This document shows, in pieces, positions 27,198-34,366 of a stretch of DNA of 64,000 bases (its first letter is position 1; every line of letters starts with the position of its first letter). The stretch comes from Streptomyces lydicus. Lineage in GTDB: Bacteria > Actinomycetota > Actinomycetes > Streptomycetales > Streptomycetaceae. Made by a program: the position numbers and the translations under genes. The DNA is taken from assembly GCF_001729485.1 (NCBI RefSeq), contig NZ_CP017157.1:7688001-7752000 (forward strand). The letters run 5' to 3'. The notes under the pieces are model-generated. The model had not been told where the DNA came from. It saw nothing but the letters and a program-made list of their open reading frames with translations, and made no database searches.

Positions 27198-28043
27198 TCA
27201 GTGGTCGCCGCCCTCGTCGATCAGCCGCCGCACCTCGCGGTCGATCAGCCCCAGCCGGGCCTCGGCGACCAGCGGCACCGCGCGGCGCTGCCGGCGCGCC
27301 TCGGAGAGATCGATCTCGACGGTGACCAGCGACGGTTCCCACTTCGGCGCCTGCGCCACCACCGCGCCGCGCGGGTCCACCACTCGCGAACCGCCCCAGA
27401 ACGACGCCCCGTGCTCATTGCCGACCCGGTTGACGAACACCACCCAGCACTGGAGCATCTTCGCCGTGTAGGACAGCAGGGTGTCCCAGTACAGCCCGGT
27501 GTCCATCGCCTCCGGGTCCAGGCTCGCCGCGCTGTTGGTCGGCACGAACAGCACCTCCGCGCCGTCCTGCACCGCCAGCCACGGCAGCACCGGCTGCCAG
27601 GCGTCGTTGCAGACGAGCGTCGCGCCCCGTCCCCCGCTCCCGGACCGGTTCAGCGCGTAGGCCCGCAGCGACTGCCCGGGGCTGACGTGCTTGCGTTCCT
27701 CCCAGGCCAGGTAATTGGGGAGGTAGAGCTTGCGGTGGGCGTGCAGCAGGGCACCCTCCGCGTAGTGCGCCGCGGTGTTGTAGGCGCGCAGACTGGTGTG
27801 TTCGTGGAAGCCGACCAGCACGTCCGGCCCCAGGGTGCTCAGCTCCAGCAGCCGCGGATCGCTCGCCTCGATCGACTCGTCACGCTTGAGTGCGCCCAAG
27901 TGGTAGCCGTGCAGGCTCAGTTCGGGGAACACGACGACGTCGGCGCCCTGGGCCGCGGCCTGCTCGATCTGCTCGCGGGCGATCGTGAGGTTCTCCGCCA
28001 CCTCACCCAGCACGCAATCCGTCTGCGCCAGCGCAATGAGCAT
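27198..28043 (-). CDS. carbon-nitrogen hydrolase (nitrilase superfamily)
   Basis: A 281-residue hydrolase with the nitrilase triad Glu41 (FPELSLHGY), Lys105 (HRKLYLPNY) and Cys145 (VCNDAW). The family splits nitriles or amides, or acts in NAD and polyamine synthesis. The sequence around the cysteine (ATLVCNDAWQP) resembles amidase-type members rather than true nitrilases. ATG at 28043 is the natural start. The substrate is unknown. Confidence 0.9.
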   Translation of the reverse strand: MLIALAQTDCVLGEVAENLTIAREQIEQAAAQGADVVVFPELSLHGYHLGALKRDESIEASDPRLLELSTLGPDVLVGFHEHTSLRAYNTAAHYAEGALLHAHRKLYLPNYLAWEERKHVSPGQSLRAYALNRSGSGGRGATLVCNDAWQPVLPWLAVQDGAEVLFVPTNSAASLDPEAMDTGLYWDTLLSYTAKMLQCWVVFVNRVGNEHGASFWGGSRVVDPRGAVVAQAPKWEPSLVTVEIDLSEARRQRRAVPLVAEARLGLIDREVRRLIDEGGDH

Positions 28044-28296
28044 GTCCGCACCTCATCGACTCATCACTTTTGCGGCTTTCCTCGCCATTCTCCCAGAGGG
28101 CGGGCGGACCGGCACGGCCCCGCGGAGTCCCGTTCCCCTGCTTCAAACGCCCCGGCCGCGGTACGACGGGCCCGCGGTCGACCGCCCGGCGCCGCCGACG
28201 GCAGGCTCGACCGGGCGGCGCGGGCCGAGCGGCCCGCCGGACCCGCTCGGCCGGTCGCCGGGCCGGAACCCGTCCCGCGTCCCGGCCCGGCCCGTC

Positions 28297-28911
28297 TCAC
28301 CTGCGCCGGGTACGGGCCCTGCGCAGCAGCAGCGCCCCTCCCAGCAGCAGCCCGCCACCGGCACCGGCCAGCATGCCGAGCTCGGCCGCGCCGGTGGACG
28401 CCAGCAGCGCGGAGCCGGCCGACGTACCGGCCCGCTCCACCGCCCCGACCCGGGGCTCCGCTGCGGCACGGTGCGGCGCGTCCCGGTGACCGGAGTGCGG
28501 CGCGAGCTCGACCGGGGGCGCGGCGCGGTGCCCGGCAGTCCGGGGCTCCGGCAGCGGCACCGGCCGGTGCGCCGGCTGCGGGACCTGGTGGCGGACCGGC
28601 TCCGGGGCGCTGCGGTGCGGCGCCGGCGGTGGCGGGGCCAGCGGGGGGCGCTGCGCGGCCGGCCACGGGGCACCGCCGGTCCCGCACGAGGCCCCCATGG
28701 CCGGGTTGAGCGCCGCGGCCCCGTCCACGGAGTTCCCGCACGCGTTGACCGGGGTGTCCACGCTGACCTGGATGCTGTTGCCGGACAGCACACCGGGCGA
28801 GTTGGTGGTGGCTCCCGCGGCGCCGGCGTCCGCGTACGCCACTCCGCCGCCCGCCCCGAGCGCGCCCGACGCGGCCGCGAGGAGCACGCACGTCTTCAGG
28901 CTCTGTCGCAT
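28297..28911 (-). CDS. long chaplin with LAxTG sortase signal
   Basis: A 204-residue secreted surface protein. Signal peptide 1-27 ends AYA-DAG. One chaplin domain (29-77) has NSPGVLSGNSIQVSVDTPVN and the two conserved cysteines at 58 and 76. A Pro/His-rich linker follows and then a C-terminal wall-sorting signal: LASTG (170-174), a hydrophobic stretch and an Arg-rich tail. LAxTG is the class E sortase signal. Most described wall-anchored chaplins carry two chaplin domains; this one has one. Chaplins assemble into amyloid-like fibrils that make aerial hyphae hydrophobic. Confidence 0.93.
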   Translation of the reverse strand: MRQSLKTCVLLAAASGALGAGGGVAYADAGAAGATTNSPGVLSGNSIQVSVDTPVNACGNSVDGAAALNPAMGASCGTGGAPWPAAQRPPLAPPPPAPHRSAPEPVRHQVPQPAHRPVPLPEPRTAGHRAAPPVELAPHSGHRDAPHRAAAEPRVGAVERAGTSAGSALLASTGAAELGMLAGAGGGLLLGGALLLRRARTRRR

Positions 28912-29054
28912 CTGTCATCCCTCGTCTGCAGTTCGTGCCCACGGGCTGCCGCCCGCGCCCCCCGTGGTTCTGACACCGCCGGGCGGCCGGCAGCGCATAC
29001 GCGGCGCCGACCGCCCGGAGACACAAGCGGTGGTACGGCCTGGGCCGTTGACCG

Positions 29055-29468
29055 TCAGTGGTTGCCGACGCCGTTGCCCGAGAGGATCGGGATGTCGTCG
29101 ACGATGTGCGACAGCGGCTCGTCGCCCTTGGCCTGCGTCGAGTTCTTGACGCACTGCTGGACCTGCGGGTTCGACAGCACGTTGATGTCCTGGACGGTGA
29201 TCGGGATGAAGCCGATCAGCGAGCCCACGTTGAGCTTCTGGGCGATGAGGCCCAGGCAGAAGTCGTTCAGGGAGCCCTGGACGAGACCGAGCTGGGTGCT
29301 CAGCTTTCCGTGGGTGGTGGAGTTGCCGTAGATCGACTTCGCCCCGTTGCCGTTGACCGACTGGGTGCCCTTCTGGTCGCCGACCGCCATGGCCTGCGGA
29401 GCGGCCGCAGCGGAAATACCGACCAGGGACGCAGCCACAGCCGCGCCCGCAATCATCTTCTTCATCAC
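29055..29468 (-). CDS. rodlin (copy 1)
   Basis: A 137-residue secreted rodlin. Signal peptide about 1-28 (MMKKMIAGAAVAASLVG to QAMA). The mature part has the family order NGNGAKSIYGNSTTHGK, QLGLVQGSLNDFCLG, PITVQDINVLSNPQVQQC and NSTQAKGDEPLSHI, with two cysteines at 71 and 106. Rodlins organise chaplin fibrils into the rodlet layer. GTG at 29468 was chosen because it aligns with the start of the other copies; ATG at 29465 is next. It is close to copy 3 in sequence. Confidence 0.95.
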   Translation of the reverse strand: MMKKMIAGAAVAASLVGISAAAAPQAMAVGDQKGTQSVNGNGAKSIYGNSTTHGKLSTQLGLVQGSLNDFCLGLIAQKLNVGSLIGFIPITVQDINVLSNPQVQQCVKNSTQAKGDEPLSHIVDDIPILSGNGVGNH

Positions 29469-29515
29469 GCAAACCCTTCAGGTGACGGGACTCCCGGCAC
29501 GAGAGCCCTATTTGA

Positions 29516-29558
29516 ACAACCCGCCACGGGGGCCCGAGTTGCGCTGCGTCACCCGAAT
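29516..29558 (-). promoter_or_regulatory. rodlin 1 promoter: box, -35-like, -10-like
   Basis: On the minus strand: box ATTCGGGTGA (29549-29558), five bases, CGCAAC (29538-29543), sixteen bases, GGTTGT (29516-29521), then 47 bases to the start. The hexamers resemble the BldN consensus CGTAAC-N16-CGTTGA, recalled from literature. Confidence 0.7.
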
Positions 29559-29734
29559 AGACGGCGTAGATTTTCACGAAAAGACGCCTCGGGCACAAAT
29601 ACCGGACCGACAATGCGATATTCCCCTGCCGGGCTTGCCGTCATGCGCTTTGTCCGGCCGCCGGGAAAGTCTCACGACAAAGGGCCCGCACCACCGACAA
29701 GACGGCTGCACAGGCCCTGAATCCATTCCGGCCG

Positions 29735-29784
29735 GCATGCCAATGCCCTGGCAACCCCATCAATTCGCAAGGGCATTGGCATGC
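29735..29784. repeat. 15-bp perfect inverted repeat in the rodlin 1 upstream region
   Basis: GCATGCCAATGCCCT (29735-29749) and its exact complement (29770-29784) are separated by 20 bases. The element lies about 270 bases upstream of rodlin 1 and about 90 bases beyond the rodlin 2 terminator. The rest of the 459-base gap holds only promoter and terminator signals. Confidence 0.7.
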
Positions 29785-29872
29785 TTCCCTCCACACACCA
29801 TTACTAACGATCCGGCACCCCGGACTTCCGTCACGAGCACATAACAATTGCGGAACTCGGGAGGGCAGCAAA

Positions 29873-29915
29873 AACCCGGGCCACCCGGAAGAAGGAGGGC
29901 CGGGTGGCCCGGGTT
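29873..29915 (-). terminator. terminator of rodlin 2
   Basis: Perfect 16-base stem (29873-29888 with 29900-29915) with an 11-base loop, 12 bases past the rodlin 2 stop and followed on the minus strand by TTTT. This is a classic Rho-independent terminator. Confidence 0.9.
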
Positions 29916-29927
29916 CGCCTCAGCGGC

Positions 29928-30338
29928 TCAGTGGTTGCCGGCGCCGTTGCCCGAGAGGATCGGGATGTTGTCCAGGATGTGCGACAGCGCCTCGTCACCC
30001 TTGGCCTGCGTCGAATTCTCGACGCACTGCTGGGTCTGCGGCGAGGAAAGGACGTTGATGTCCTGGACGGTGATCGGGATGAGACCGATCAGCGAGCCGA
30101 GGTTCGCCTTGGTGGGCAGACCGATGCAGGGCTTGTTCAGCGAGCCCTGGATCAGACCGATCTGCGGGCTCATGTAGCCGTACGTGGTGGAGTTCCCGTA
30201 GAACTGCGTCGCACCATTGCCGTTGACGGAAGACGTCCCGTGCTGGTTACCGACCGCCATTGCCTGAGGGGCAGCAGCCGCGGCTACACCGACAATGGAC
30301 GCAGTCGCGGCTGCGGTCGCCAGAGCCTTCTTGATCAT
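29928..30338 (-). CDS. rodlin (copy 2)
   Basis: A 136-residue secreted rodlin with signal peptide MIKKALATAAATASIVG to QAMA. It shares NGNGATQFYGNSTTYGYM, IGLIQGSLNKPCIGLP, ITVQDINVLSS and NSTQAKGDEALSHI. It is the most divergent of the three: KPCIGLPTKANLGSL replaces DFCLGLIAQKLNVGSL. ATG at 30338 is certain. It has its own promoter and terminator. Confidence 0.95.
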   Translation of the reverse strand: MIKKALATAAATASIVGVAAAAAPQAMAVGNQHGTSSVNGNGATQFYGNSTTYGYMSPQIGLIQGSLNKPCIGLPTKANLGSLIGLIPITVQDINVLSSPQTQQCVENSTQAKGDEALSHILDNIPILSGNGAGNH

Positions 30339-30673
30339 TATAGGTCCTTCGTGTTTCGGGATGCCCTTGGGCCGGGCAGACTGCCCAACTCAAAAGGGCG
30401 TTTTTGGTTGTGCCCATTCACTCAAATGAGCTGGCGCCGTGATTCGTCTTGCCGATCGATTACGACGGCTCCGTCGAGGCGCATCGAGCGGAACAATTCC
30501 TGGGTGGCCGCACACACACCGAACGCCGACATGCGCATTTGAGCACCGCGAAATCCGGGTAGCCGCTCCGTTTTCACCGCACAACCCACAGGACAGCGGA
30601 GTCCGCGCGGCACCGGCTCTTCTCCGACCGGCCGGCCGCGCTCCCACCGTCCGGAAAACGGCTCCCGCGGACG
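30339..30673. other. gap between the unassigned secreted protein and rodlin 2
   Basis: Apart from the rodlin 2 promoter I see no gene in this 335-base gap. Short frames (for example 30422-30613 minus) lack coding-like composition. A small GC hairpin may lie near 30648-30673, after the stop of the secreted protein gene. Confidence 0.4.
30385..30427 (-). promoter_or_regulatory. rodlin 2 promoter: box, -35-like, -10-like
   Basis: On the minus strand: box ATTTGAGTGA (30418-30427), five bases, CACAAC (30407-30412), sixteen bases, AGTTGG (30385-30390), then 46 bases to the ATG. The layout is identical to that of the other two rodlins. Confidence 0.7.
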
Positions 30674-30970
30674 TTACTTGAGCGGCAGACCGCCGAGCAG
30701 CGGGACGCTCTTGACCGCGCCCGTGGCGCTGCTGAGCAGCTTGTTCGCGTTGGCGGACTTGACCTTCTCACCGGCGGTCTTGACCTTCTTGACCAGCGGC
30801 CTGACCTGGTGACCGTCCAGCTGCCCGCTCTTCGTGCTCTGCAGGGCGTCCGCCAGCCCGCCGTTGAGACTCATCGTCGGGGCACCGGGCGGGGCCGCGA
30901 CGGCGGGCGCGGCAAAACCCAGCGCCATCACGGAACCGGCGACAATCGCCGCAGACTTCGCGTGCTTCAC
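30674..30970 (-). CDS. secreted protein of unknown function within the rodlin/chaplin cluster
   Basis: A 98-residue protein with a clear signal peptide (MKHAKSAAIVAGSVMALGFA, cleavage near AVA-APP). The mature part, about 70 residues, has no cysteine and no chaplin or rodlin motif; it is Lys-rich with two LVKKVKTAGEKVKSANANK-like helical stretches and ends LLGGLPLK. The signal peptide resembles that of the short chaplin next door (VKHAK versus VKYAK), as does the ribosome-binding site. GTG at 30970 was preferred; a TTG at 30976 is possible. Placement suggests a part in the surface layer; no function is known to me. Confidence 0.8.
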   Translation of the reverse strand: MKHAKSAAIVAGSVMALGFAAPAVAAPPGAPTMSLNGGLADALQSTKSGQLDGHQVRPLVKKVKTAGEKVKSANANKLLSSATGAVKSVPLLGGLPLK

Positions 30971-31175
30971 TTTCAACTGTCCCTTCTCAGGCGGTGTTTG
31001 ACCGGCCGCGACGCACGCGCCGCGTGAGCATTCACTTCGCTGCTCGGATCACCGCTTTCCACCTCACTAACGAGTTCCGTCGCCCGGAGAAACCCCTGAG
31101 GTTCCGCCTTCTTGACGACGCCACCCGAAAAGGTGCGGCCCCGGTGCTCCACCCGCGGCCGGGGACGCATATGCC

Positions 31176-31217
31176 GACCGGCCCCGATGCGCAGGAGACC
31201 GCGCACCGGGGCCGGGT
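31176..31217 (-). terminator. terminator of the short chaplin
   Basis: Imperfect hairpin: ACCGGCCCCG near 31177-31186 pairs with CGGGGCCGGGT at 31207-31217 with one bulge, and an inner GCGC pair. It begins 24 bases beyond the chaplin stop. Confidence 0.65.
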
Positions 31218-31240
31218 CACCCGGCTCGAATTCCTTCGAG

Positions 31241-31474
31241 TCAGTGGTTGAGGCAGGTGTTGCCGAACGCCGGGTTCAGCAGACCGATGATGTCAATGGT
31301 GTTGCCACAGAGGTTGATCGGGATGTGGATCGGAACCTGAATGGCGTTGCCGGAGAGGACACCGGGGGAGTTCTTGGCGCCGCCGGCGGCACCCGCGTCG
31401 GCGAACGCAGGCGCAGCCGCGCCCACTGCCATCAGCGTGCCGGCAGTGACTGCTGCGACCTTTGCGTACTTCAC
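31241..31474 (-). CDS. short chaplin
   Basis: A 77-residue secreted chaplin. Signal peptide 1-25 (to AFA-DAGAAG), then one chaplin domain with NSPGVLSGNAIQVPIHIPIN and cysteines at 56 and 74, which form the disulfide of the family. It has no wall-sorting signal, so it is of the ChpE-H type that self-assembles at the surface. GTG at 31474 has GGAAGGG six bases upstream; frames further upstream are not coding-like. Confidence 0.95.
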   Translation of the reverse strand: MKYAKVAAVTAGTLMAVGAAAPAFADAGAAGGAKNSPGVLSGNAIQVPIHIPINLCGNTIDIIGLLNPAFGNTCLNH

Positions 31475-31546
31475 TTTCAGCCCTTCCTGCAGCGGGTCCG
31501 TGGCGCACACGACCGTCGTGTCGCACGGGCGCGGATCTGCTCGCCC

Positions 31547-31573
31547 GTAACACCGCTGCCGATATTGGTAACG
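31547..31573 (-). promoter_or_regulatory. possible promoter of the short chaplin
   Basis: CGTTAC (31568-31573), fifteen bases, TGTTAC (31547-31552), about 72 bases before the start. It is weaker than the rodlin promoters: the spacing is one short and the -10 matches poorly. The rodlin upstream box is absent. The rest of the 364-base gap shows no gene. Confidence 0.35.
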
Positions 31574-31783
31574 ATTTCTCTTCGTGGACGAAACTCTTGC
31601 CGGGAGGTTTTCGGAGGAATCGCTCGAAGGGTGCACGACCGCTTCGCGAGATTGCCACCGCGCATACGACGCGGAAAACACACCGGAGTTCGCACAGACG
31701 AAGGACCCACCGAATACGGATTCCCACCGAGGGGAGGATCGAGAAATTCCGTCCCTACGGTTCGCAACGCGGCGCCGCAGCGC

Positions 31784-31818
31784 CCGGACCGCTGAGGAAG
31801 TGAGAGCCGGCGGTCCGG
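31784..31818 (-). terminator. terminator of rodlin 3
   Basis: Nine-base perfect stem (31784-31792 with 31810-31818) with a 17-base loop, 20 bases past the stop of rodlin 3. Confidence 0.6.
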
Positions 31819-31838
31819 ACCTGCGGCCGACGGGCGGC

Positions 31839-32252
31839 TCAGTGGTTGCCGACGCCGTTGCCGGAGAGCACCGGGATGGTGTCCAGGATGTGCGACAGCG
31901 GCTCGTCGCCCTTGGCCTGCGTCGAGTTCTCGACGCACTGCTGCACCTGCGGGTTGGACAGCACGTTGATGTCCTGAACGGTGATCGGGATGCCGATGAG
32001 CAGCGAACCGACGTTCAGCTTCTGGGCGATCAGGCCCAGGCAGAGGTCGTTCAGGGACCCCTGGACCAGCTCCAGCTGCGGGCTCATCTTGCCGTGCGTG
32101 GTGGAGTTGCCGTACACGGACTTGGCTCCGTTGCCGTTGACCGTGGCGGTGCCCTTGTGGTTGCCGACGGCCATCGCCTGGGGGGCGGCCGTTGCCGAGA
32201 TGCCGACGACGGACGCGGCTACGGCCGTCGTGGCCAGGACCTTCTTGATCAC
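31839..32252 (-). CDS. rodlin (copy 3)
   Basis: A 137-residue secreted rodlin with signal peptide MIKKVLATTAVAASVVG to QAMA. It has NGNGAKSVYGNSTTHGKM, QLELVQGSLNDLCLGL, PITVQDINVLSNPQVQQC and NSTQAKGDEPLSHI. It differs from copy 1 mainly in the signal peptide and a few core positions, so copies 1 and 3 look like the most recent duplication. The start is GTG at 32252. Confidence 0.95.
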   Translation of the reverse strand: MIKKVLATTAVAASVVGISATAAPQAMAVGNHKGTATVNGNGAKSVYGNSTTHGKMSPQLELVQGSLNDLCLGLIAQKLNVGSLLIGIPITVQDINVLSNPQVQQCVENSTQAKGDEPLSHILDTIPVLSGNGVGNH

Positions 32253-32298
32253 GATTTACCCTTCTCGAAGCGGAGTGCCCGTATCCGGAGCGCACTGG

Positions 32299-32341
32299 TC
32301 AACTCGCTTCTGTGGGCGCGGTTTCGCCGTTTCACTCGAAT
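32299..32341 (-). promoter_or_regulatory. rodlin 3 promoter: box, -35-like, -10-like
   Basis: On the minus strand: box ATTCGAGTGA (32332-32341), five bases, CGAAAC (32321-32326), sixteen bases, AGTTGA (32299-32304), then 46 bases to the GTG start. This copy is nearest to the BldN consensus in both hexamers. Confidence 0.72.
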
Positions 32342-32375
32342 GCCGCGAAACCATAAACACATATCACTGCACTCC

Positions 32376-32449
32376 GACCGATGGGCGGACCGCTCCGGGT
32401 CGCCCATCGGTCATATCAAAGGCCGGTACGGGGAATTGGTACCGGCCTT
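32376..32449. repeat. two tandem hairpins between rodlin 3 and the polymerase gene
   Basis: First hairpin: perfect 12-base stem (32376-32387 with 32401-32412), 13-base loop. Second: perfect 11-base stem (32419-32429 with 32439-32449), nine-base loop. Only six bases separate them. They lie between divergent genes, so neither is an obvious terminator. The rest of the 431-base gap (32253-32683) shows the rodlin 3 promoter and no gene. Confidence 0.75.
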
Positions 32450-32683
32450 CGGCGCGCCGGGGCGCCCGGGTTATGGGTCCTTTGGGCCCCACACGGCTTT
32501 GAGCGACGGGGAGTTGAGGGCGATTGTTGCGGATGCCGTCCCAACAGGCTTGTGGTCAGGGCCCGTTGTCGGTGGCGTGCGGGGCAGCTGGTGGGGCTCG
32601 GGCGGCTGTGGGTGCGTACCGGTGGAGCGCGGCGTGTCCGCAGGTCGGGGCGATTGTCAGACCCGGGTGCAAGACTCGGAGGC

Positions 32684-34366
32684 ATGAGATGGGCGGTGGC
32701 GGAGACGGGCGACGGGGGTGCTCGTCTCTGCCCGCTCGGACCGGACGGCCGGCCCGCGGGTCCGGTGGTGCGGGAGCCGTCGCTCGCCGAGGCGGTGCGG
32801 TCGCGGCCGGAGGTCGGGCGGTGGGTGTGGCGGTCCACCGCGGAGATCTACCGGCGGCTGCTGGCGGCCGGGGTGCGGGTGGAGCGGTGCTACGACGTGG
32901 AGGCCGCCGAGGCGCTGCTGATCGGCCACGAGGAGGGGCAGTCGGGGCAGCCTCGTTCGCTGGCCGCCGCCTGGGCGCGGCTGCGCGGTCTGCCGGTGCC
33001 GCCGGACGCTCCGGTGCGCGCGACCGAACCGCAGCCGTCCCTGTTCGAGCCGGGCCCGGTGCCGCTGCCGCCGGGCACGGACGAGATGACCGCGCTGCTG
33101 GAGGTCTACGCCGGCCAGTTGGCGCGTACGGGGAAGGCCGGGCATCCGGAGCGGATGCGGCTGCTGCTGGCGTCGGAGTCCGCGGGGATGCTGGTCGCGG
33201 CAGAGCTGCGCCGGGCCGGGGTGCCGTGGCGGGCGGACGTCCATCGGGCGCTGCTGGACGAGCTGTTGGGCGAGCGGTACCCGGGCGGGATGGAGACCCG
33301 TCGGCTGGCGGAGCTGGCGGACGAGGTGTCGCGGGCGTTCGGGGCGGGCGCGCGGGTGCGGCCCGATCTGCCGCAGGACATCATCAGGGCGTTCGCCGGC
33401 GCGGGGATCGCGCTGACCTCGACCCGCAAGTGGGAGCTGCAGCGGATCGACCATCCGGCGGTGGCGCCGCTGCTGGAGTACAAGAAGCTGTACCGCCTGC
33501 ACACCGCCCACGGGTGGTCCTGGTTGCAGCAGTGGGTGCACGACGGCCGGTTCCGCCCCGAGTACCTGCCCGGGGGCACGGTCTCCGGGCGCTGGACGAC
33601 CAACGGGGGCGGGGCGCTGCAGATCCCCAAGGTGATCCGGCAAGCGGTGCGCGCGGATCCGGGATGGCGGCTGGTGGTCGCCGACGCCGCCCAGATGGAG
33701 CCGCGGGTGCTGGCGGCCGTCTCCCGTGACCGCGGTCTGATGGAGGTGGCCGGCAGCGGCGAGGACCTGTACGCGGGTCTGGCGGCCCGCGCGTTCGGCG
33801 GTGACCGGGCGCAGGCCAAGCTGGGCCTGCTCGGGGCGATTTACGGTCAGACGTCGGGCGATGCGCTCAAGCACATGGCCGATCTGCGGCGCCGCTATCC
33901 GGCCGCGGTGGCGTACGTGGACGAGGCGGCTCGTGCGGGCGAGGAGGGGCGTCTGGTGCGCACGTGGCTGGGGCGTACCTGTCCGCCCGCGTCCGTGGCG
34001 CCACCCGACGAGGCGGGCCTGCTGCAGGAGGAGGAGCAGCCGGCGGCGTACGGCGGCGGTTCCGCGGCGGCCCGTGCCCGCGGCCGGTTCACCCGTAACT
34101 TCGTCGTGCAGGGCAGTGCCGCGGACTGGGCGCTGCTGGTGCTGGCGGCGCTGCGCCACGCGCTGTGGGAGGGCGGGCTCCGCGCCGAGCTGGTGTTCTT
34201 CCAGCACGACGAGGTGATCGTGCACTGTCCGGCGTCGGAGGCGGCAGTGGTGGCGGAGGCCATCGCGGCCGCGGCCGGGACGGCGGGGCGGATCGCCTTC
34301 GGGCGGACGCCGGTGCGCTTCCCGTTCACGACGGCGGTGGTGGAGTGCTATGCGGACGCGAAGTGA
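32684..34366 (+). CDS. PolA-like DNA polymerase (family A, exonuclease domain reduced)
   Basis: A 560-residue protein usually called bifunctional 3'-5' exonuclease/DNA polymerase in actinomycetes, distinct from the full-length PolA. The polymerase core is intact: motif A ADAAQMEPR with Asp334, motif B RAQAKLGLLGAIYGQT (Arg375, Lys379, Tyr387), motif C FFQHDE with Asp509. The first 130 residues are a shortened exonuclease-like domain without clear DEDD acidic residues. The 5'-nuclease domain is absent. ATG at 32684 has GGAGG but only one base of spacing, so the true start may differ slightly. Role in repair or in replication of special templates is unproven. Confidence 0.9.
   Translation: MRWAVAETGDGGARLCPLGPDGRPAGPVVREPSLAEAVRSRPEVGRWVWRSTAEIYRRLLAAGVRVERCYDVEAAEALLIGHEEGQSGQPRSLAAAWARLRGLPVPPDAPVRATEPQPSLFEPGPVPLPPGTDEMTALLEVYAGQLARTGKAGHPERMRLLLASESAGMLVAAELRRAGVPWRADVHRALLDELLGERYPGGMETRRLAELADEVSRAFGAGARVRPDLPQDIIRAFAGAGIALTSTRKWELQRIDHPAVAPLLEYKKLYRLHTAHGWSWLQQWVHDGRFRPEYLPGGTVSGRWTTNGGGALQIPKVIRQAVRADPGWRLVVADAAQMEPRVLAAVSRDRGLMEVAGSGEDLYAGLAARAFGGDRAQAKLGLLGAIYGQTSGDALKHMADLRRRYPAAVAYVDEAARAGEEGRLVRTWLGRTCPPASVAPPDEAGLLQEEEQPAAYGGGSAAARARGRFTRNFVVQGSAADWALLVLAALRHALWEGGLRAELVFFQHDEVIVHCPASEAAVVAEAIAAAAGTAGRIAFGRTPVRFPFTTAVVECYADAK

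Follow-up and report, generated by a model that had tools for sequence, protein, structure and literature searches.

A predicted BldM site at fixed spacing upstream of the BldN-like promoters of Streptomyces rodlin genes

Three rodlin genes lie on the minus strand of a 64,000-nt stretch of Streptomyces lydicus DNA (contig NZ_CP017157.1, positions 7,688,001 to 7,752,000; hereafter the window), and upstream of each stands a ten-base box, ATTYGRGTGA, followed by 5 nt, a −35-like hexamer, 16 nt, a −10-like hexamer and 46–47 nt to the start codon. The question raised by this locus is which protein reads the box. The box occupies the same place in rodlin genes of two genera and agrees with the published consensus sites of BldM. 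It is probably a BldM site, as predicted from sequence comparison, from which a BldM homodimer, using an imperfect site, or a BldM-WhiI heterodimer would co-activate the adjoining sigma-BldN promoter.

The box and its spacing at rodlin promoters

The three genes are rodlins according to NF041022 (E-values of 4e-62 to 4e-69; 208–231 bits against a cut-off of 75). The upstream layout, which a sequence-only reading of the window had described as common to all three copies, was re-found in each of them with the same box, hexamers and spacings. The features are as follows, where the −10 coordinates are derived from the 16-nt spacer.

29055..29468, minus strand: rodlin gene 1, GTG start at 29468, 47 nt between −10 and start
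29516..29543, minus strand: BldN-like promoter of rodlin 1, CGCAAC-N16-GGTTGT (−35 at 29543-29538, −10 at 29521-29516)
29549..29558, minus strand: box of rodlin 1, ATTCGGGTGA (wider form CTATTCGGGTGAC)
29928..30338, minus strand: rodlin gene 2, ATG start at 30338, 46 nt between −10 and start
30385..30412, minus strand: BldN-like promoter of rodlin 2, CACAAC-N16-AGTTGG (−35 at 30412-30407, −10 at 30390-30385)
30418..30427, minus strand: box of rodlin 2, ATTTGAGTGA
31839..32252, minus strand: rodlin gene 3, GTG start at 32252, 46 nt between −10 and start
32299..32326, minus strand: BldN-like promoter of rodlin 3, CGAAAC-N16-AGTTGA (−35 at 32326-32321, −10 at 32304-32299)
32332..32341, minus strand: box of rodlin 3, ATTCGAGTGA

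The conservation of this layout was determined using 108 loci and the window, which gave 272 rodlin reading frames; 25 were dropped for lack of a start, a short upstream region or duplication, and 247 with a distinct usable upstream region remained. The hexamers had been read as BldN promoters, and this assignment is supported, as a CGTAAC-like and CGTTGA-like pair 16 nt apart exceeds the score cut in 245 of the 247 regions; the count is generous because the best-scoring place was chosen, and the spacing to the box is independent of the box. Among the 246 rodlins with a promoter score of at least 6, the spacer is 16 nt in 196, 17 nt in 49 and 15 nt in one. Passages of PMC4125116 state that sigma-BldN directs bldM p1, the chaplins and the rodlins. 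Compared with the bldM p1 promoter, CGTAAC-N16-CGTTGA, the rodlin form CRNAAC-N16-RGTTG has the same spacing and related hexamers; however, the box lies inside the spacer in bldM p1 and upstream of the −35 hexamer in the rodlins.

The ten-base box by itself is not significant, with three exact matches in the window and four in total when one mismatch is allowed, which equals chance (mean 4.05). The composite occurs more often than chance. The pattern GTGA-N5-CRNAAC-N17-GTTG has three matches in the genome of 8,201,357 bases, all at the three rodlins, and its reversed control has none. In 150 genomes of the genus, the composite gave 210 matches against 13 for the control, with at least one match in 118 genomes; some of the 210 are a near-identical, coding-like sequence recurring far from rodlins, so that the count does not consist of rodlins only.

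In the rodlin upstream regions, the gap between the end of GRGTGA and the hexamer is exactly 5 nt in 171/247, and that between GTGA and the hexamer in 174/247, while places displaced by 30, 40, 50 or 60 nt contain GRGTGA once in total. Many of the remaining rodlins have a diverged copy at the box position, such as GAGTGG or GGGGGA. The element is thus real, although the ten letters first proposed for it are too narrow: ATTYGRGTGA itself is found at that place in only 46/247, and the conserved form is the broader CCRTTCGRGTGAA. This profile was obtained from 123 promoters, made non-redundant from the 195 rodlins with a 16-nt spacer, with those of 17- or 15-nt spacer left out, and its columns reach 0.35–1.70 bits, with flanks below about 0.25. 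Its right half-site, cGgGTGA, is conserved at C 67, G 95, R 97, G 93, T 84, G 91 and A 87 per cent, and the inner left bases cCg occur at the right spacing (C 75, C 85, G 54/A 39 per cent). At the box place, roughly nine tenths of the 123 promoters have a fitted-matrix score of at least 6.3, and a score of 5 is attained at 141 of some 128,000 places across the window; since the matrix was trained on the same promoters, these values are descriptive and not an independent test.

The sequence-only reading had proposed examining whether the box and the 5/16 spacing persist in orthologous rodlin genes, and they do, a second genus of the family included. There, the box stands at a gap of 5 nt in 20/20 rodlins, hand-picked from the listed matches, and often has the full consensus; the −35 hexamer varies (CATTAC, CATAAC, CGGAAC), and one of the 20 (locus L212) has a weak promoter score.

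Two further occurrences of the composite were seen at position 1501 of fetched loci. One precedes a gene of the PEP-mutase family (PF13714) in L110, and a similar one, with GCGTTGATCAG, lies in L112.

Agreement with BldM sites and recurrence at other genes

Passages of PMC4125116 give TCACcCgnncGgGTGA as the consensus of the BldM homodimer (Group I) and TGnnCCGnnCGGGTGA as that of the BldM-WhiI heterodimer (Group II) in S. venezuelae. The part common to both, CCGnnCGGGTGA, is matched by the rodlin consensus CCRTTCGRGTGAA at 10/10 specified positions, and these ten make up every specified position among the 3′ twelve bases of the heterodimer site; in terms of the homodimer site, the right arm and the inner left bases are present. 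Each of the three boxes in the window departs from the core at one of its ten positions, either the first C or the second. With at most one mismatch, the BldM core is found in 39/123 rodlin promoters against 1.8 in shuffles (z 29). The BldD, AdpA and Crp patterns show modest enrichment (z 4.1, 6.7 and 4.8), far under that of the BldM core, and the MtrA pattern (z 0.8) and the PhoP repeat (z −0.4) are at background level, and the PhoP repeat was rejected on this ground. The box had first been taken as an undescribed element, which its agreement with the published consensus sites does not bear out. The genome from which the window comes does have a gene for BldM.

The box recurs at the short chaplins, where the window has the following features, together with those of a neighboring 100-aa protein.

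31241..31474, minus strand: short chaplin gene with a ChpA-C domain
31568..31595, minus strand: chaplin-type promoter, AGTTTC-N16-CGTTAC, a layout common to other short chaplins
31618..31631, minus strand: diverged box of the short chaplin, CCCTTCGAGCGATT (CCCTTCGAGCGA at 31631-31620; also read as CTTCGAGCGA), 24 nt before the −35-like hexamer
30674..30976, minus strand: 100-aa protein with a signal-like N-terminus (by eye)
31067..31094, minus strand: chaplin-type promoter of the 100-aa protein, GGTTTC-N16-CGTTAG
31121..31132, minus strand: diverged box upstream of the 100-aa protein, CTTTTCGGGTGG, 26 nt before the promoter

The short chaplin had been described as having no box; in fact, a diverged copy stands 24 nt before its AGTTTC-N16-CGTTAC promoter, and many short chaplins have the box at that place. 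Their promoters differ in type from those of the rodlins, and the strict form RGTTTC-N16-TCGTT (spacer 15–17) is matched in 72/117 short chaplins and in 5/32 long chaplins. In the 60 that form the non-redundant subset of these 72, G[AG]G[TC]GA lies 22–27 nt upstream in 43, at 24 or 25 nt in 37, against 0.55 in shuffles and 1 in the reversed control. The distance of the box in chaplins differs from that in rodlins by 19–20 bp, which is about two helical turns, so that the site would stay on the same face of the helix. With the transcript start predicted about 7–8 nt past the −10 hexamer, the site would be centered near −48 in rodlins and −67 in chaplins. Two long multi-repeat chaplins (L127 and L135 of genomes G131 and G132, position 1501) have instead the rodlin-type layout, with a box-like GGGTGA, 5 nt, CGCAAC, N16 and GGTTG.

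The 100-aa protein belongs to no Pfam or NCBIfam family. A chaplin-type promoter was found in 33/48 upstream regions of its matches, at least two of which are chaplins by length, and a box score of at least 4 at 24–26 nt in 10. This secreted-looking protein may be an unrecognised sheath component.

At bldM itself, 30 loci (L140-L169) were taken from the 59 genomes with a match. The 16-nt spacer of bldM p1 between CGTAAC and CGTTGA is YCTTTCGRGTGACCRT, nearly invariant in 30/30 loci, and contains the box TTTCGRGTGA in all 30, with the bases preceding the promoter less conserved than the spacer. Within this GRGTGA a single base varies, at the purine position that is also variable in the rodlins, and the sequence TAACTC-TTTC-GRGTGA approaches the palindrome of the homodimer site. 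The box in this spacer is possibly an autorepression site, to judge from its position.

The murA2 gene is a target footprinted by BldM-WhiI, according to passages of PMC4125116. When the matrix derived from rodlins only was applied upstream of murA2, the best match fell on the same strand at −514 to −559 of the fetched piece in 14/20 genomes. A score of at least 15 is reached in 7/20 murA2 pieces, 0/30 murA1 pieces, 1/60 bldM-locus pieces and 1/100 Markov shuffles, and the scores of murA2 and murA1 differ with a Mann-Whitney p of 4e-7, an optimistic value as the genomes are related. The presence of similar sites upstream of a published Group II target leans, on this sequence likeness, towards the BldM-WhiI type of dimer.

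The BldM patterns were also sought genome-wide. In the genome of the window, the Group I pattern TCACNCGNNCGNGTGA occurs once, with no sheath gene recognised nearby by eye. In three genomes, 27 exact matches of CCRTTCGRGTGA have mixed neighbors, with 11 inside predicted genes, and these neighbors did not reveal the BldM regulon; the 12-mer gave 592 matches genome-wide against 49 for the control in 61 genomes. An exact box, CCATTCGAGTGA, was seen 18 nt before the predicted start of a GlgE (maltosyltransferase) gene (L280, position 1501).

Other features near the three rodlins are a longer chaplin-domain protein (28297-28911) and two inverted repeats. That at 29735-29784, between rodlins 1 and 2, has 18-nt arms (94% complementary) and a 14-nt loop, with no T run seen and no Rfam match; the other, a perfect 16-nt inverted repeat at 29873-29915 directly past the stop codon of rodlin 2, is probably the rodlin 2 terminator. 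The Rfam scan of 28000-33500 gave no match.

Weighing of the explanations

Several results weigh against the assignment of the box to BldM. The outer left arm of the Group I site, TCAC, has no support in the rodlins, where the mean match is 1.10 in register and 0.89–1.33 at shifts, and several rodlins of the second genus have TTATCC. The outer left TG of the Group II site at −21/−20 is at chance (9/90 against 7.8 expected), with the mean match slightly highest in register, and the rodlin box differs further from the heterodimer site in its conserved TT center, its trailing A and the adjoining sigma-BldN-like promoter. With looser promoter calling, which covered 141/149 chaplins after 8/157 matches had been dropped, the box lies at 23–27 nt in 75, while 53/141 have no box and 13 have it elsewhere. 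At a cut of 12, the matrix is unspecific (murA2 12/20, murA1 1/30, bldM-locus pieces 13/60, Markov shuffles 8/100), and the bldM-locus control and the positional count at murA2 pull in opposite ways. The murA2 box is mostly oriented away from the gene, and the window's own genome has no box upstream of murA2. Three further published targets of BldM are of little help: the usual best match at whiB (30 loci, of which 15 fitted the start pattern in a first pass and all 30 were taken in a second) overlaps the conserved core promoter and makes an ambiguous control, and the signals are weak at the presumed ssgR, the reading frame before ssgA (median 9.6 against 7.8 in downstream DNA), and at mixed paralogues of eshA-like genes (8.2 against 5.9). 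In the literature, the passages of PMC4125116 at hand mention chaplins and rodlins solely as targets of sigma-BldN, where strong BldM binding would be expected to be noted, and binding of BldM to rodlin promoters is not stated in the passages at hand from open-access papers on BldM with rodlins, chaplins or WhiI. An action of BldM at rodlins may already be known, for instance from the sigma-BldN regulon study (Bibb 2012) or the supplement to PMC4125116.

The upstream regions of the presumed ssgR and of the eshA-like genes also contain elements of their own. A palindrome, TCCCYCGGNCGRGGGA, stands upstream of the presumed ssgR in several of L343-L357 and may be a naturally occurring form of the Group I site of BldM. 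Many eshA-like upstream regions contain a CTCRTTYGTGTAAT element, and CTCRTTYGTGTAATRGC, which resembles a diverged BldM palindrome, lies about 140–165 nt upstream of many encapsulin (eshA-like) genes in L298-L327; the eshA-mib promoter is bound by BldM, according to a passage of a review.

The box could instead be an activating site read by a different developmental regulator whose half-site resembles GGGTGA, such as a response regulator not yet studied or a BldM partner distinct from WhiI. Neither BldM consensus is matched by the left arm beyond CC, the rodlins are absent among the BldM targets named in the available passages of PMC4125116, and rodlins are reported to respond also to MtrA, BldC and c-di-GMP enzymes. 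However, the ten-position agreement with the BldM core and the result at murA2 make an unrelated reader less likely, and we regard this explanation as rather unlikely. Passages of PMC5650626 describe MtrA itself as required for induction of rdlA and rdlB in S. coelicolor and as binding in front of chp and rdl genes, with "loosely conserved" sites at rdl. The box and the −35 hexamer would then form one direct repeat, since the rodlin GTGA-N5-GNAAC resembles a loose repeat and a 10-nt period would suit it. Against the consensus GtnAcC-n5-GTnAcn, which a passage of PMC13189361 cites from Zhang et al., the key bases are nevertheless not conserved in the rodlins: in the first half, A stands in place of the C in 71% and C is kept in 15%, and in the second half the T is kept in only 4%. 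As the pattern is also not enriched and the chaplin box stands without a second element at that spacing, the repeat with GTnAC in both halves was rejected, and there is very little to be said for MtrA as the reader of the box.

Two explanations concern the action of the box more than its reader. The constant 5-nt distance between box and −35 hexamer, seen in rodlins of both genera, would be expected of an extended or UP-like element of the sigma-BldN promoter touched by RNA polymerase. The UP element is A/T-rich, unlike the rodlin box, which is G-rich and sequence-specific. The same box also lies 24–25 nt from the chaplin-type −35 hexamer, between the two hexamers of bldM p1 and a long way upstream of murA2, and because of this recurrence at other promoter distances the extended element was rejected and is highly improbable; between the activator site and the extended element that the sequence-only reading had both allowed, the former fits better. 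The box could also be an operator from which BldM or another protein represses the sheath genes, as in 30/30 bldM p1 promoters examined the box stands between the −35 and −10 hexamers, a place at which a bound protein should obstruct the polymerase. The rodlin and chaplin boxes, however, are upstream of −35, at places typical of activators, and the BldM targets described in passages of PMC4125116 are activated; repression of the sheath genes is accordingly quite improbable. The explanation that we favor thus remains co-activation by BldM.

Meaning for sheath formation

In the favored mechanism, BldM, itself a product of sigma-BldN, would bind the box directly upstream of the rodlin −35 hexamer, touch the polymerase and activate the sigma-BldN holoenzyme. 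With both sigma-BldN and BldM needed at the rodlins, a coherent feed-forward loop would result, which would delay and sharpen the expression of the sheath proteins. At the short chaplins, BldM would bind the same box about two helical turns further up and aid the same holoenzyme, and on the box of bldM p1 it would occupy the stretch between the −35 and −10 hexamers and would be expected to repress. We put forward only tentatively, as a proposal that may well fail, that one BldM box is used at three positions (about −48 in rodlins, about −67 in chaplins and within the bldM p1 spacer), so that feed-forward and negative feedback on bldM would together yield a pulse of sheath synthesis. The reported inputs of MtrA, BldC and c-di-GMP on chp and rdl genes are compatible with the assignment to BldM.

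The arrangement at the rodlins suggests that two linked regulators must act jointly to switch on the water-repellent spore coat. If BldM does act directly at the chaplin and rodlin promoters, one explanation would cover the bald phenotype of bldM mutants, the strict timing of sheath synthesis and the extreme degree to which the bldM p1 spacer is conserved.

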